39,333 bases of DNA from Alphaproteobacteria bacterium. GTDB taxonomy: Bacteria > Pseudomonadota > Alphaproteobacteria > Bin95. The stretch covers positions 1 through 39,333 of the forward strand of contig JAJDVH010000061.1 of NCBI GenBank assembly GCA_022826185.1. Reading direction: 5' to 3'. Made by a program: the position numbers and the translations under genes. Below are positions 786 through 6,884 of the stretch, piece after piece (position 1 is the stretch's first letter; every line of letters begins with the position of its first letter). Below the pieces are notes generated by a model, which worked only from the letters and a program-made list of their open reading frames with translations, made no database searches and had not been told where the DNA came from.

Positions 786-1278
786 TGTAGATATCCAGGG
801 CGACATCGACCCCATCGTTCAGGAAAATGACCGTCTTGGCGGCAATCCGCCATTCGCCGTCCTCGCAACGGAGCCGGTAGCGGTAGCGCCCGCCATGCAC
901 GCGCGCGCCCTTGAGCGTGGCATATTGATGCACCGTCCAGGACGCGACGGCCTCGACCTCGCCTTCCTCGGCGGAGAGGATCAGCACATTGCCGACCACA
1001 TGGCACGACCGCGGCATCGGCAGCGAGGCGTAGCTGTCCCGCGTGCCGATGCGGAACACCCGGTCGTCGAGGCCTTCCTTGCCCTGGATGTAGATCAGCG
1101 CGAGCTCGGTTTCGGGGTCGCGGGAGAGGGTTTCCTCTCCGGTCCATGCGGGCACCCAGAAGGTCACATCGTCCGTGAACAGCGCCAGCCAGTCCTCGAA
1201 GCGGCGTTCGTCCAGCAGCCACGCGTCGAGATGGATGACCCGCTCAATGGCGAGCTGCAGGTCCGGGTCGATCTTCAC
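778..1278 (-). CDS. Aromatic-ring-hydroxylating dioxygenase, beta subunit
   Basis: A 166-residue small subunit of a Rieske non-heme iron ring-hydroxylating oxygenase. Family features are the helix LDAWLLDERRFEDWLALFTDDVTFWVPAW near the start, RDSYASLPMPRSCHVVGNV in the middle, and the C-terminal RYRYRLRCEDGEWRIAAKTVIFLND typical of the NTF2-like fold. The beta subunit is structural and assembles with alpha as an alpha3beta3 hexamer. I chose the GTG at 1278: it makes a 4-bp GTGA overlap with the alpha stop and has an AGGA about 8 bases upstream. An ATG at 1317 is possible but would overlap alpha by 43 bp. Its stop overlaps the start of yciB. Confidence 0.9.
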   Translation of the reverse strand: MKIDPDLQLAIERVIHLDAWLLDERRFEDWLALFTDDVTFWVPAWTGEETLSRDPETELALIYIQGKEGLDDRVFRIGTRDSYASLPMPRSCHVVGNVLILSAEEGEVEAVASWTVHQYATLKGARVHGGRYRYRLRCEDGEWRIAAKTVIFLNDGVDVALDIYNV

Positions 1279-2597
1279 TCGGCGGTCCTGTCGGCCCGGG
1301 CTATTAGGCGCCGCCACTGGCGGTATTGTCCGTGATAGAGCGTTTCATGATCCCAGCGCGGACTGGTCGAAACCGGACGGATACCGAGGTCGGCTGCCGC
1401 GTCGTCACCGCCCTCCAGCATGGCGGAAAAGCCGCGTGAGAGGTCGTTCCAGCGGTCGAGGCGGCCTTCGCATCCCGCCTGCGTGTCCTCCAGCGCCGCT
1501 GAATCGTCCGGCGTTGCCAGCCCGCTCATCAGGAAGAAATCGCGGAACTTGGAGAGCCTTGCCGCGCGAGCGGTGCGGCTCTCGCCCTTCGGCGCGATGC
1601 AGTGGACCGTGACTTCCGTGCGGCTCGGCGAAATCGGGCGGATGACGCGAATCTGCGTCGAGGACTGGTCCATGAGGAAGACGTTGGGGAACAGCAGGAG
1701 GTTGCGCCCGCGCGCGCACATCCAGTTCCATTTCCGCTCGCCGACGAGCGGCAACAGGCGGTCGCGTGCTTCCCAGAGCGGCGCCGATTCCGGCATCCCC
1801 CGCTCGGTCCAGATCAGGTTGTGGCCGTTGCCGAGGTCGTAGCAGCCATTACGGGTCTTGCCCATGAAGCGCGTGTTGTCGGTGCGTCCGGTCCCGGTCG
1901 CGCCCGATTTCAGATCGCGGCGCTGGACCGTGGTGACGAAGTTCCGATGGACGGTGGAGACATGGTAGCCGTCCACGCCGTTTTCGGTCTGGAGCTTCCA
2001 ATTGCCGTCCACGACGTAGCTCGCCTGGCCCGGAACGACCTCCATGCCGTCAGGCGACTGGTCGGCGAGCAGGTCGATGACCGGAAGAGCCTCGCCCAGA
2101 TGCTCGGCGAGCGGCGGCGCATCGGCATTGAGCGAGCCGAAGATGAAACCCTTGTAGCTCTCCAGCAGCGGGACCGTCTTGAGGGCGAAATCGGCGCGCG
2201 ATGCGCCTGGCGGCAATGCTGAAGTGCGCTCGTCCTTGATCTTCGTGCAGGCGCCGAAGGTGTCGTAGCACCAGCCGTGGTAGCGGCACACGAACGTGGT
2301 CGCCTTGCCCTGCCGGGTTGGCGTCAGGCGGGCGCCGCGATGGGCACAGGCGTTCAGCATGGCGCCGACAGAGCCGTCGGCCCGCCGGTTGACGATCACC
2401 GGCTGCCGGCCCATCCAGACGGCAAGATAGTCGCCGGGCGCGGCAATCTGGCTCTCATGCGCGAGATAGATCCAGTTACCCTCGAAGATCGTCTCGATCT
2501 CCGCGGCGAAAACCTCAGGGTCCGTATAGACGGCCCGGTCCACCCTGAAGACGCCCTCGCCGGCGCGGTCGTCCACGAGCGATGCAAAGGCGTTCAT
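1275..2597 (-). CDS. Benzoate/anthranilate-type ring-hydroxylating dioxygenase, alpha subunit
   Basis: A 440-residue catalytic large subunit. The Rieske [2Fe-2S] motif is CAHRGAR followed by CRYHGWCYD, and the mononuclear iron site is the GVDGYHVSTVH segment (D-x2-H-x4-H). The phrases IFEGNWIYLAHESQI and GNWKLQTENGVDGYH are close to those of BenA/XylX (benzoate and toluate 1,2-dioxygenase) and AntA (anthranilate dioxygenase), so I place it in that branch; the actual substrate cannot be read from sequence. The start is the ATG at 2597 (MNAFASLVDDRAGEG). Translation is coupled to beta. No reductase (BenC-like) and no cis-diol dehydrogenase of BenD type lie next to it, so electron supply must come from elsewhere. 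It is divergent from the flavin oxidoreductase gene with 67 bp between starts. Confidence 0.92.
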   Translation of the reverse strand: MNAFASLVDDRAGEGVFRVDRAVYTDPEVFAAEIETIFEGNWIYLAHESQIAAPGDYLAVWMGRQPVIVNRRADGSVGAMLNACAHRGARLTPTRQGKATTFVCRYHGWCYDTFGACTKIKDERTSALPPGASRADFALKTVPLLESYKGFIFGSLNADAPPLAEHLGEALPVIDLLADQSPDGMEVVPGQASYVVDGNWKLQTENGVDGYHVSTVHRNFVTTVQRRDLKSGATGTGRTDNTRFMGKTRNGCYDLGNGHNLIWTERGMPESAPLWEARDRLLPLVGERKWNWMCARGRNLLLFPNVFLMDQSSTQIRVIRPISPSRTEVTVHCIAPKGESRTARAARLSKFRDFFLMSGLATPDDSAALEDTQAGCEGRLDRWNDLSRGFSAMLEGGDDAAADLGIRPVSTSPRWDHETLYHGQYRQWRRLIARADRTAE

Positions 2598-2664
2598 CGC
2601 ATTGCGTCTCCCCTGCGGATGACGCTCTATACCGCAAAACGCCAGCCACGGGGGAGGGAGGCGC

Positions 2665-3645
2665 ATGGCGCTCCGGCTCGAAGAGGGACTGAAACTCGGC
2701 ATCCAGACGATCCACCGCCAGGGGGATTTCGAAACCGGCCACTGGCTCCCGCGCATCGACGATCTCGTGGCCTTCGTAGAGGACGTGGACAGGAAGGGCT
2801 TCGACGAGATCTGGCTGGGCGACCATGTTTCCTTCGCCATACCGTTTTTCGATCCCCTGCTGATGATCGCGCAGGCGGCGGTGGCGAGCCGGCGGCTGGT
2901 CTTCGGCACGGGCGTTTACCTGCTGCCGCTGCGCCATCCGGGGCCGGTGGCAAAGATGACGGCCACGCTCGACCACCTGACCGAGGGACGGTTCATCTTC
3001 GGTGTCGGCGTCGGCGGCGAGTTCCCGAAGGAATACGAGGTCTGCGGCGTGCCCCGGGAGGAGCGGGGCCGCCGGTTGACCGAAAGTATCGAGGCGGTCC
3101 GCGCGCTCTGGTCGGGGAAGCCGGCAAGCTATCGCGGGCGCCATTTCTCCTTCGAGGATGTGCCGATGCTGCCGCCGCCAAGGCGGGCGGGCGGCCCGCC
3201 GATCTGGTGCGGGGGACGGCGGCCGCCGGCATTGCGGCGCGCCGGGCGGCTCGCTGACGGTTACCTCTCCTATGTCGTGACGCCGGAGATGTTTGCGCGC
3301 GCGCTGGCTGAAATCGACGGCGCAGCGGAAGCGGCCGAGCGCAAAGACGCGCCATTCGGCACCGGCCATCTGCTCTTTGCGCGCATAGACGACAGCTACG
3401 AGCGCGCCCTCGACATCGCAACCGAGTCGCTGTCCCGCCGTTACGCCATGGACTTCCGCAAGGCGGCGGCGCGCTATGCGGCGCTCGGCACGGGCGAACA
3501 GGTGGCCGAGCGCATAGCCGAGTTCCACCGGGCGGGCGCAAGACACATGGTCGTCGATTTCGTCGGCCCGTATGACCGGCGCTCGGAGCAGATCGAGCGC
3601 TTCGCCAGCGACGTCATGCCGCTCCTGGCCGACCTGAGGAAATGA
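2665..3645 (+). CDS. LLM-class (luciferase-like) flavin-dependent oxidoreductase
   Basis: A 326-residue TIM-barrel flavin oxidoreductase of the bacterial luciferase/F420-dependent superfamily. Visible family features are DEIWLGDHVSFA after the first strands, LVFGTGVYLLPLRHPGPVAKM, the GRFIFGVGVGGEFPKEYEVCGV loop, and PPIWCGGRRPPALRRAGRLADGYL. Such enzymes reduce flavin or F420 and act as monooxygenases or dehydrogenases; the substrate is unknown. An ATG start with a GGGGGAGGGAG Shine-Dalgarno region just upstream supports position 2665. A possible promoter is TTGCGT (2602) with TCTATA (2626). It is divergent from the Rieske dioxygenase, which suggests a shared catabolic role, and converges on the selenoprotein gene with 4 bp between stops. 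Confidence 0.9.
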   Translation: MALRLEEGLKLGIQTIHRQGDFETGHWLPRIDDLVAFVEDVDRKGFDEIWLGDHVSFAIPFFDPLLMIAQAAVASRRLVFGTGVYLLPLRHPGPVAKMTATLDHLTEGRFIFGVGVGGEFPKEYEVCGVPREERGRRLTESIEAVRALWSGKPASYRGRHFSFEDVPMLPPPRRAGGPPIWCGGRRPPALRRAGRLADGYLSYVVTPEMFARALAEIDGAAEAAERKDAPFGTGHLLFARIDDSYERALDIATESLSRRYAMDFRKAAARYAALGTGEQVAERIAEFHRAGARHMVVDFVGPYDRRSEQIERFASDVMPLLADLRK

Positions 3646-3649
3646 TCGG

Positions 3650-5296
3650 CTACTCCCGGATCGCCTCGGTGACGGAGAGCGTGCTGCCGAAGGACGGGAT
3701 GACGCAGGAGTGGCGTCCCGCCCCGCCGGCGACCATGACCATGAGTTGTTCCCGCTCGCTGACGATGCGCACGCCGTCCCTGCCGTCCGGGCCGACGAAA
3801 CGCTCCGGCACCTGCTGGCCGTAAAGCGCCATCTGCGCCTTGCCGATATGCCAGCGCGGGATGATCGCGCGCTCGATGATGAATCGCTCCACATCCTCCT
3901 TCGACCAGCCTTCGCGCGCGATCACCTCGGCATGTTCCGGGCCGATCACCACCAGATATTCGCCGTGGAAATAGGAGTTGTTGCAGCCGGGCGTCGCCAT
4001 GGTGCCGCAGATCGTCAGCAGAACGTCTTCGGCCGTTTCGCTGTAATGGTCGTTGACATTGTGCGGCCCTTCGACGCCGCAAAGCGTGACGGCATTCTGC
4101 TCCGCGCCGAAGCCGCGTTCCGTGTGGAAGGCGGCCCAGGGATTGGCCTCGCCGTTCTCCGCGAAGCAGTAGCTGTATTTGGCGGGCGTGCCCATCGTCG
4201 CGCGGTCGAGCACGCCGGGCTGCGCGCCGCCGATATTGGTCAGCACCAGGCGGACCGCGCGCCCGATCGCGGCATTGGCGTGGACGCCCTGGCCCATGCA
4301 GTTGGTGCCCGACGCGATATCGAGCTCTTCTGCTATCGGCCCGTGCACGACGGTCAGCAGGCCGCAGGGATGGGTCGTGGACTGGAGCGCCTTCAGGTTC
4401 AGCCGCTCGGCGGTCATGGCCCGCGTCGCGGCGAGGATGACCGGCATCATCGCCGGCACCGCCCCGGCCATAACGGCGTTGGCGGCGACCTTGCCGACCG
4501 TCGCAAGGCCGAGGCGCGGCTCGATAAGCCCGATTTCCTCATCGGGGTCGCGCCCGCCCAGCATGGCGTCCCAGCGGTCGGGCGTCGGCGGAACGAAAGG
4601 CAGGCCGTCGGTCCAGCCGCGCTGGTAGAAAACGCGGTTCAGCGCCTCCGGTGAGTCGGGACCGGAAATCCGCTCCGGCGCGCCGGGCGCGTTGAAGTCG
4701 CCCTCGAACAGCGAGCGGTAGCGCATCCGGCCCCGCTTCGGCAGGGGGCGGTTGCGGCATTCCTCCGCGAGCGCCGCCGCGTCCGCCTCCAGCATGTGGA
4801 CGATCTGGTCTATCGCCTCGTCGGCGATCTCCGAAACGCCGGGGGGCGGCAGCTTCGCCACCGGATGCGGCACGACCGCAATCGGCAGGCCCGCCATGCC
4901 GAGGCATTCGGCCTCCGCCTTGCCGAGAGCGAAGAATTCGTCCGTGCAGGTGACCGCTACCGGAATGCCGCGCTCTTCAAGCTTGATCGCGTCATGGATA
5001 CACCACGACGTGCAGGAGCCTCAGTCCCCGAAAGCGGCGGCCACGGCGTGGACCCGGTCGAGCCAGTGCTGCGAGAAATTGGCGGGCTCGCTCGCGATCT
5101 TCTGGAAGAGCTCGAACTCCAGATGCGGGTAGCGCGCCTTCAGCCGGTGCGACACCTCTTCCAGGTAAAGGTCTGCATTCGCCTTGAGATTGGAGAACAG
5201 GCCAACGGTCTTGACGTCCTCCAGCGAGCGCCGCGGCGCCAGCGCGCCGCTATTGCGCTGGTAGATGCCGCAGGGATTGATAAGCTCCTGTGCCAT
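3650..5296 (-). CDS. UGSC-family selenoprotein (in-frame TGA at 5023-5021 read as Sec92), with long C-terminal domain
   Basis: Read from the ATG at 5296, the frame runs MAQELINPCGIYQRN to an in-frame TGA at codon 92 and then continues without interruption to the stop at 3650, giving 548 residues. Around the TGA the protein reads AAAFGD-U-GSCTSWCIHDAI, exactly the U-G-S-C motif that names the UGSC family of (seleno)proteins. Coding character and homology-like content continue on both sides of the TGA, which a pseudogene with a random nonsense mutation need not preserve at precisely this residue. Residues 1-140 form the UGSC domain (Sec92, Cys95, Cys99). Residues of about 215-548 form a second domain I do not recognise, with GWTDGLPFVPPT (about 227-238), THPCG (Cys311) and GTNCMGQG (Cys333). 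The role is presumed to be thiol/selenol redox chemistry, but the substrate is unknown. A conventional gene call would start at 4897 and lose the N-terminus. The gene is divergent from two SDRs (40 bp) and convergent with the flavin oxidoreductase. No sel genes are in the window. Confidence 0.88.
4990..5020 (-). promoter_or_regulatory. Bacterial SECIS-like hairpin directly downstream of the selenocysteine codon
   Basis: On the minus strand, 10 nt after the TGA (5023-5021), the segment CGTCGTGG (5010-5003) pairs over 8 bp, including one G-U, with CCATGACG (4997-4990) around the 5-nt loop TGTAT (5002-4998). The loop starts 18 nt after the TGA and carries G in its second position. Bacterial SECIS elements recognised by SelB lie within the coding region just after the UGA, with an apical loop roughly 16-37 nt downstream and a conserved G in its first two positions, so this hairpin fits. 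Base pairing was found by eye; folding energy was not computed. Confidence 0.7.
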
Positions 5297-5336: not shown

Positions 5337-6095
5337 ATGGGACGCCTGGAAGGCAAGATTGCGATCATTACCGGCGCCGGGTCCGGGATCGCCAGGGCAG
5401 CCACCGGAATCTTCATTCGCGAGGGCGCGAAGGTGATGGTGGCGGAGATCGACGAAGCGGCGGGCGCTGCGGCGGCGGCGGACACAGGAGCCGCATTTCA
5501 CCGCACCGACGTGACCGACGATTCCTCGGCGGCGGCCTGCGCGGCGGCGGCGATGGCCGAGTTCGGGCGCATCGACATCCTGTTCAACTGCGCCGGCGGG
5601 TCGGTGATCGAGGACACGGCGATCCACGACGTCGATCTCGGTGTCTGGGACCGCACCATCCCGCTCGACCTCAAGGGCCCGATGCTGATGTGCCGCCATG
5701 TCGTGCCGCACATGATCGCGGGCGGCGGCGGCGCCGTCGTCAATGTCTCTTCCGTCGTGGCGCTGCGCGGCAACCATCCGGCGCATATCTATTCCGCTGC
5801 GAAGGGCGGACTGATCTCGTTCACGCGCTCGCTCGCCGGCTCCTATTCGGACCAGGGCGTGCGCGCCAATGTGATCTGCCCCGGCCTCATCCTGACCGAG
5901 CGCGTCCGCGCCCGCTACCGCCAGCCGAACGAGGAGCGCCCGCGCGAAGGCTCGATCGGCACCTTCGAGAAATATCCGTTCGGCGTCGGCCAGCCCGAGG
6001 ACATCGCCAATATCGCGCTCTTCCTCGCATCGGACGAGGCGCGCATGGTGAACGGCGCGGTCATTCCGGGAGAAGGCGGCATCTCCGCCTATTGA
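5337..6095 (+). CDS. SDR family oxidoreductase (first copy of a tandem pair)
   Basis: A 252-residue short-chain dehydrogenase/reductase. It has the Rossmann nucleotide motif TGAGSGIA near residue 12, the structural NCAGG motif, a conserved VSSV segment, and the catalytic YSAAK. The acidic residues after the second strand (VAEIDE) suggest NAD+ preference. The likely reaction is NAD-dependent oxidation or reduction of an alcohol or ketone; the substrate is unknown. The ATG at 5337 has GGAGG about 9 bases upstream; an upstream open stretch from 5265 overlaps the selenoprotein start and is not needed. It is followed after 30 bp by a paralogue of about 80% identity and is divergent from the selenoprotein gene. 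Confidence 0.93.
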   Translation: MGRLEGKIAIITGAGSGIARAATGIFIREGAKVMVAEIDEAAGAAAAADTGAAFHRTDVTDDSSAAACAAAAMAEFGRIDILFNCAGGSVIEDTAIHDVDLGVWDRTIPLDLKGPMLMCRHVVPHMIAGGGGAVVNVSSVVALRGNHPAHIYSAAKGGLISFTRSLAGSYSDQGVRANVICPGLILTERVRARYRQPNEERPREGSIGTFEKYPFGVGQPEDIANIALFLASDEARMVNGAVIPGEGGISAY

Positions 6096-6125: not shown

Positions 6126-6884
6126 ATGGGACGGCTCGAAGGCAAGATCGCGGTGATTACCGGGACTGGAACCGGAATCGCCAGGGCGGCCACCGGAATC
6201 TTCATTCGCGAGGGCGCGAAGGTGATGGCGGCGGAGATCGACGAGGCGTCGGGCGCTGCAACGGCAGCCGAGACCGGCGCGGTCTTTCATCGCACCGACG
6301 TGACCGACGACGCTTCCGCAGCCGCCTGTGCGGCGGCGGCGATGGCCGAGTTCGGGCGCATCGACATCCTGTTCAACTGCGCCGGCGGATCGGTCCCCGA
6401 GGACACGAAGATCCATGAGGTCGATCTCGAAGTCTGGGACCGCACGATCCCGCTCGATCTCAAGGGCCCGATGCTGATGTGCCGCCATGTGGTGCCGCAC
6501 ATGATCGCGGGCGGCGGCGGGGCGGTCATCAACATCTCCTCGGTCGCGGCCCTGCGCGGTTTCGTGCCCAGCCATGTCTATTCGGCGGCGAAGGGCGGGC
6601 TGATCTCCTTCACCCGCTCGCTCGCCGGCTCCTATTCCGACCAGGGCGTGCGCGCCAATGTCATCTGCCCCGGGCTCATCCTGACCGAGCGCATCCTTGC
6701 GCGCTATCCGGGGCCCGGCGGGGAGCGCCCGAAGGAAGGGCCCTTCGCGGTTTTCGAGAGCTATCCGTTCAGCATCGGCCCGCCGGAGGACATTGCGAAT
6801 ATCGGGCTCTTCCTGGCCTCGGACGAATCCCGCATGGTCAATGGCGCGGTCATCCCGGCGGAAGGCGGCGTCTCCCACTACTGA
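6126..6884 (+). CDS. SDR family oxidoreductase (second copy of a tandem pair)
   Basis: A 252-residue paralogue of the preceding gene, the same length and aligning without gaps at about 80% identity. It keeps the cofactor loop (TGTGTGIA), NCAGG, the ISS segment and the catalytic YSAAK. The differences cluster in the substrate-binding region around residues 190-215 (ARYPGPGGERPKEGPF against ARYRQPNEERPREGSI) and after the catalytic serine, as expected if the copies act on related but different substrates. Both probably share one transcript (30 bp apart). The ATG at 6126 matches the start of copy one; a GTG at 6117 is an alternative. The 3' end overlaps the convergent transporter gene by 7 bp. 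Confidence 0.93.
   Translation: MGRLEGKIAVITGTGTGIARAATGIFIREGAKVMAAEIDEASGAATAAETGAVFHRTDVTDDASAAACAAAAMAEFGRIDILFNCAGGSVPEDTKIHEVDLEVWDRTIPLDLKGPMLMCRHVVPHMIAGGGGAVINISSVAALRGFVPSHVYSAAKGGLISFTRSLAGSYSDQGVRANVICPGLILTERILARYPGPGGERPKEGPFAVFESYPFSIGPPEDIANIGLFLASDESRMVNGAVIPAEGGVSHY

Follow-up and report, generated by a model that had tools for sequence, protein, structure and literature searches.

A putative bacterial SECIS hairpin within the coding sequence of a UGSC-family selenoprotein gene

Background

Is the TGA that interrupts a long minus-strand reading frame in this DNA read as selenocysteine (Sec), and is the hairpin that follows it the SECIS element directing that recoding? The locus was examined in the window, by which we mean the whole 39,333-nucleotide stretch of DNA that was analysed. 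The question matters for annotation, as under standard rules the gene would be ended at codon 92 and a selenoprotein of 548 residues would go unnoticed. A sequence-only reading had proposed a SECIS-like hairpin placed to bacterial rules behind the TGA, and had held that it supports recoding independently of the protein motif.

Results

The interrupted gene belongs to the UGSC family, with its protein scoring above the cut-offs of both NF041046 (UGSC_fam; 129 bits, cut-off 125) and PF24696 (143 bits, cut-off 25). The motif DUGSCTSW occupies residues 91-98, with Sec predicted at the TGA. The gene and its two domains are as follows:

3650-5296, minus strand: UGSC-family selenoprotein gene, 548 aa with Sec92, ATG at 5296 and stop at 3652-3650 (translation, NF041046, PF24696, full-length relatives aligned)
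4787-5284, minus strand: UGSC domain, residues 5-170 (PF24696 match, predicted structure)
3653-4672, minus strand: C-terminal domain (FYQRGWTDGLP domain), function unknown (no family; conserved in relatives)

In the predicted structure, the UGSC domain is an alpha/beta domain in which Sec92-Gly-Ser-Cys95 opens a helix. The C-terminal domain, ~340 residues long, had no match in Pfam or NCBIfam, and its pattern FYQRGWTDGLP...AENEE.SPWEPLH is kept in Proteobacteria, Chloroflexi, and Actinobacteria. In Bacillus (L028) the C-terminal domain is instead a separate gene adjoining UGSC, and this neighbouring arrangement suggests that the two act together. A sequence search of the PDB returned no match. 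Structure searches found only generic alpha/beta folds for the UGSC domain, with no stand-out relative, and weak, inconsistent matches to class I fumarases and cyclic amide hydrolases for the C-terminal domain; from these predicted models we would name no firm relative and draw no function for either domain.

Divergent from the UGSC gene are two tandem short-chain dehydrogenase genes on the plus strand (5337-6095 and 6126-6884), which share 84% DNA identity and represent a duplication. The same region also encodes a luciferase-like, F420-type oxidoreductase (2665-3645, plus strand; TIGR03619 above cut-off) and the alpha subunit of a Rieske ring-hydroxylating oxygenase (1275-2909, minus strand).

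The elements around the TGA, in the direction of reading, are these:

5023-5021, minus strand: in-frame TGA, selenocysteine codon 92 (translation with TGA as Sec)
5020-5011, minus strand: 10-nt spacer GGCTCCTGCA from the TGA to the hairpin (sequence)
5010-5003, minus strand: SECIS stem, 5' arm CGTCGTGG (= CGUCGUGG) (folding, pair counting)
5002-4998, minus strand: apical loop TGTAT / UGUAU, containing G23 and U24 (sequence, folding; GU kept via AGT/TGT)
4997-4990, minus strand: SECIS stem, 3' arm CCATGACG (= CCAUGACG) (folding, pair counting)

The stem has 8 bp, one of them a G-U pair, and the loop reads U22 G23 U24 A25 U26 when the U of the UGA is counted as 1. The sequence-only reading had described an 8-bp stem with loop TGTAT beginning 10 nt past the TGA, a loop 18 nt from the TGA with G at its second position, and an overlap with coding sequence. 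All of this proved accurate on the minus strand across 5023-4990, the TGA being codon 92 of the 548-residue frame. Folding, which had been suggested as a check, recovered the hairpin in both the MFE and centroid structures of a 57-nt fold and in 51% of the ensemble of a 41-nt fold starting at the TGA. The 21-nt hairpin alone has a stability of -11.1 kcal/mol (z -4.2), which was equalled by 0 of 200 shuffles; the stability of the 57-nt stretch as a whole is ordinary (z -0.33).

How often such a hairpin arises by chance was evaluated over every TGA triplet in the window, with both strands counted. A hairpin passing a loose SECIS rule, in our own version of the published one, follows 94 of the 744 triplets (13%), and at 27 of the 744 the passing hairpin is at least as stable as the one at 5010-4990; the published loose rule, taken alone, is weak evidence. 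An 8-bp stem at exactly +10 was found for a single triplet among the 744, the one at 5023-5021. The encoded protein imposes a further constraint. When synonymous codons were shuffled with the protein held fixed, 14.5% of draws formed all 8 pairs and 1.45% formed them together with the loop GU, while under synonymous randomisation the conserved peptide CTSWCIHD alone yielded a mean of 6.1 of the 8 pairs. Because this peptide already gives about six of the eight pairs, the hairpin in a single gene amounts to moderate extra evidence for recoding. The earlier claim of support for recoding holds, and the claimed independence from the protein motif calls for qualification.

The firm evidence pointing to a SECIS is the conservation of synonymous sites across the family. 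We compared homologues from the window's own genome, its genus and family, other Alphaproteobacteria, Gammaproteobacteria, Chloroflexi, Bacillus, and Actinobacteria. Across 97 distinct downstream sequences, the Sec column holds TGA or TAG in 87 and Cys in 10. Actinobacterial UGSC homologues (L129, L130, L132, L133, and L138) were observed to have an in-frame TAG in place of the Sec TGA while retaining the hairpin; UAG-coded Sec has already been reported in UGSC genes of Geodermatophilaceae (PMC5330540).

In most of the proteobacterial and actinobacterial Sec genes the hairpin sits gap-free at the same place, and the loss of pairing in Sec-keeping orthologues that the sequence-only reading had named as counting against it was not seen in close orthologues. 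Of the 87 Sec homologues, 84 retain the closing pair (C-G in 66, G-C in 18), which changed ~4-5 times on the tree, too few for a sign or independent-pair test to reach significance; it is paired in 5 of the 10 Cys homologues. Intact inner five pairs were found in 62/87 Sec homologues versus 1/10 Cys homologues, in which loop and stem features are mostly lost, a contrast drawn from a Cys set of just 10 and from few independent changes. In a set of 25 diverse sequences, 88% of the cells in the helix pair count were paired, and four stem pairs showed two-sided changes, with far lower values in slid controls. The covariation score of this set was 0.275 versus 0.139 in shuffles (0/500), so the check for covariation in homologues came out in favour of the proposed element, with synonymous covariation across the stem.

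Pair counting also revealed that conservation across the family is poor for the outermost pairs, at the base of the stem. In more distant Sec homologues, among them those of Chloroflexi, just the upper stem is retained; the Chloroflexi genes keep ~4 inner pairs with the loop CUUGU. Longer folds of the window sequence add extra outer pairs to GGCTCC. These patterns would fit a situation in which the UGA is read as Sec and SelB needs a different or larger structure overlapping the hairpin. We consider this unlikely, given that the shared core identified by RNAalifold consists of the inner five pairs and the loop, which lie inside the hairpin as described. On one Chloroflexi contig (L020), several UGSC copies were observed, of which one carries the motif UGTU, with two TGA codons, and another has the motif shifted to CSGVYT.

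The number of pairs that the peptide yields under synonymous randomisation, including all 8 in the fraction of draws given above, could also mean that the hairpin is a by-product of CTSWCIHD, without a role as RNA. Against this, the free synonymous sites are fixed as the hairpin needs. Sec genes with Ser in the loop all use AGT for it (48/48), and those with Cys there all use TGT (16/16), set against a background elsewhere in these genes of 6% AGT among Ser codons and 18% TGT among Cys codons; at codon +2, only 5 of 71 Ser codons are AGT. At +8, Val is written GTC opposite TGG and GTG opposite TGC or TAC, and Leu is written CTC opposite TGG and TTG or CTG opposite TGC. This rule of NNC opposite TGG and NNG opposite TGC or TAC is mostly not followed by the Cys homologues. 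A by-product of the peptide is accordingly a very improbable account. A true stop or a sequencing error, leaving the gene broken or split and the hairpin irrelevant, would agree with the TGA splitting the frame under the standard code, yet it is in practice excluded by conservation, since dozens of genomes, as well as the six paralogues of this one, have a TGA in that alignment column, the frame is otherwise open, and some Actinobacteria have TAG there and others Cys.

The host genome was found to encode the full Sec machinery, with selA and selB adjacent on C232, selD on C206, and a tRNA-Sec (selC) with anticodon TCA/UCA. It has six UGSC genes (on C206, C243, C81, C192, C20, and C219; L045-L050), each with exactly one in-frame TGA, and its genus and family relatives have two to six UGSC genes each. 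A search of the genome with a model of the hairpin detected five of the six UGSC genes at E < 1e-12. The sixth, on C219, has a different upper stem-loop and matched the model only at E 0.04. Nothing besides the UGSC genes rose above noise in this search; a match at C232:16322-16366 (L148) was rejected as noise, as no selenoprotein was seen when the locus was inspected.

Discussion

We hold with high confidence that the hairpin at 5010-4990 serves as a bacterial SECIS for UGA codon 92, with SelB binding and Sec insertion expected by analogy with E. coli. The SECIS interpretation of the sequence-only reading is supported by the structural constraints, by synonymous conservation, by decay in the Cys homologues, and by the Sec machinery of the genome. 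In the E. coli mechanism, carried over to this gene, SelB with Sec-tRNA(Sec) and GTP would bind the hairpin loop through G23 and U24, a short way downstream of the ribosome, and would deliver selenocysteine at UGA codon 92 in place of termination. The expected product is a selenoprotein of the full 548 residues that carries the redox motif Sec-Gly-Ser-Cys.

The family alignment offers an unusually clear case of RNA-level selection within coding sequence, in which the loop GU fixes rare Ser and Cys codons and the two sides of the stem covary at synonymous sites. In other respects the biology is as expected from known Sec decoding. More tentatively, and somewhat short of an even chance in our judgement, this alphaproteobacterial lineage may have multiplied its UGSC selenoproteins to as many as six per genome, nearly all with one stereotyped SECIS that lacks the bulged U, and with one of the proteins joined to a widely conserved domain that is uncharacterised. 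If true, this would point to a family of Sec-dependent enzymes whose chemistry is unknown.

Comparison with known systems

An Rfam scan returned no family, SECIS or otherwise, for the hairpin site, and its two sub-threshold matches were attributed to chance. The published bSECIS model (PMC13188914) specifies an apical loop of 3-9 nt, an upper stem of 4-16 bp, G at one of the first two loop positions, usually then followed by G or U, a distance of 16-37 nt from the UGA to the apical loop, and an MFE of at most -7.5 kcal/mol. With a loop of 5 nt, a stem of 8 bp, GU in the loop, a distance of 18 nt, and -11.1 kcal/mol, the window hairpin violates none of these, and the earlier placement to bacterial rules agrees with all four constraints of the model. 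Like the SECIS of E. coli fdhF, it overlaps coding sequence, and its loop G23 and U24 lie at the same distance from the UGA, as we checked against the fdhF sequence. Roles for G23 and U24 have been described in fdhF, where a bulged U17 is essential (PMC8659212). Unlike fdhF, the window hairpin has no bulged U17, with C17 instead pairing with G31, and its stem is an uninterrupted 8 bp rather than bulged, without the long lower stem. Since it lacks the bulged U17, we do not file it as an fdhF-type SECIS.

The protein itself falls within a selenoprotein family that is known and abundant in environmental data, with its function unknown (PMC2398784). The GOS data held 255 Sec against 21 Cys members of UGSC, and a fusion of UGSC to an unnamed domain was also reported there (PMC2398784). 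Like this family as defined by NF041046 and PF24696, the window protein has the UGSC motif, and its Sec homologues outnumber its Cys homologues; it carries a fused C-terminal domain of 340 residues. The hairpin is almost certainly an ordinary bacterial SECIS by the consensus definition, in a gene of the already known UGSC selenoprotein family.
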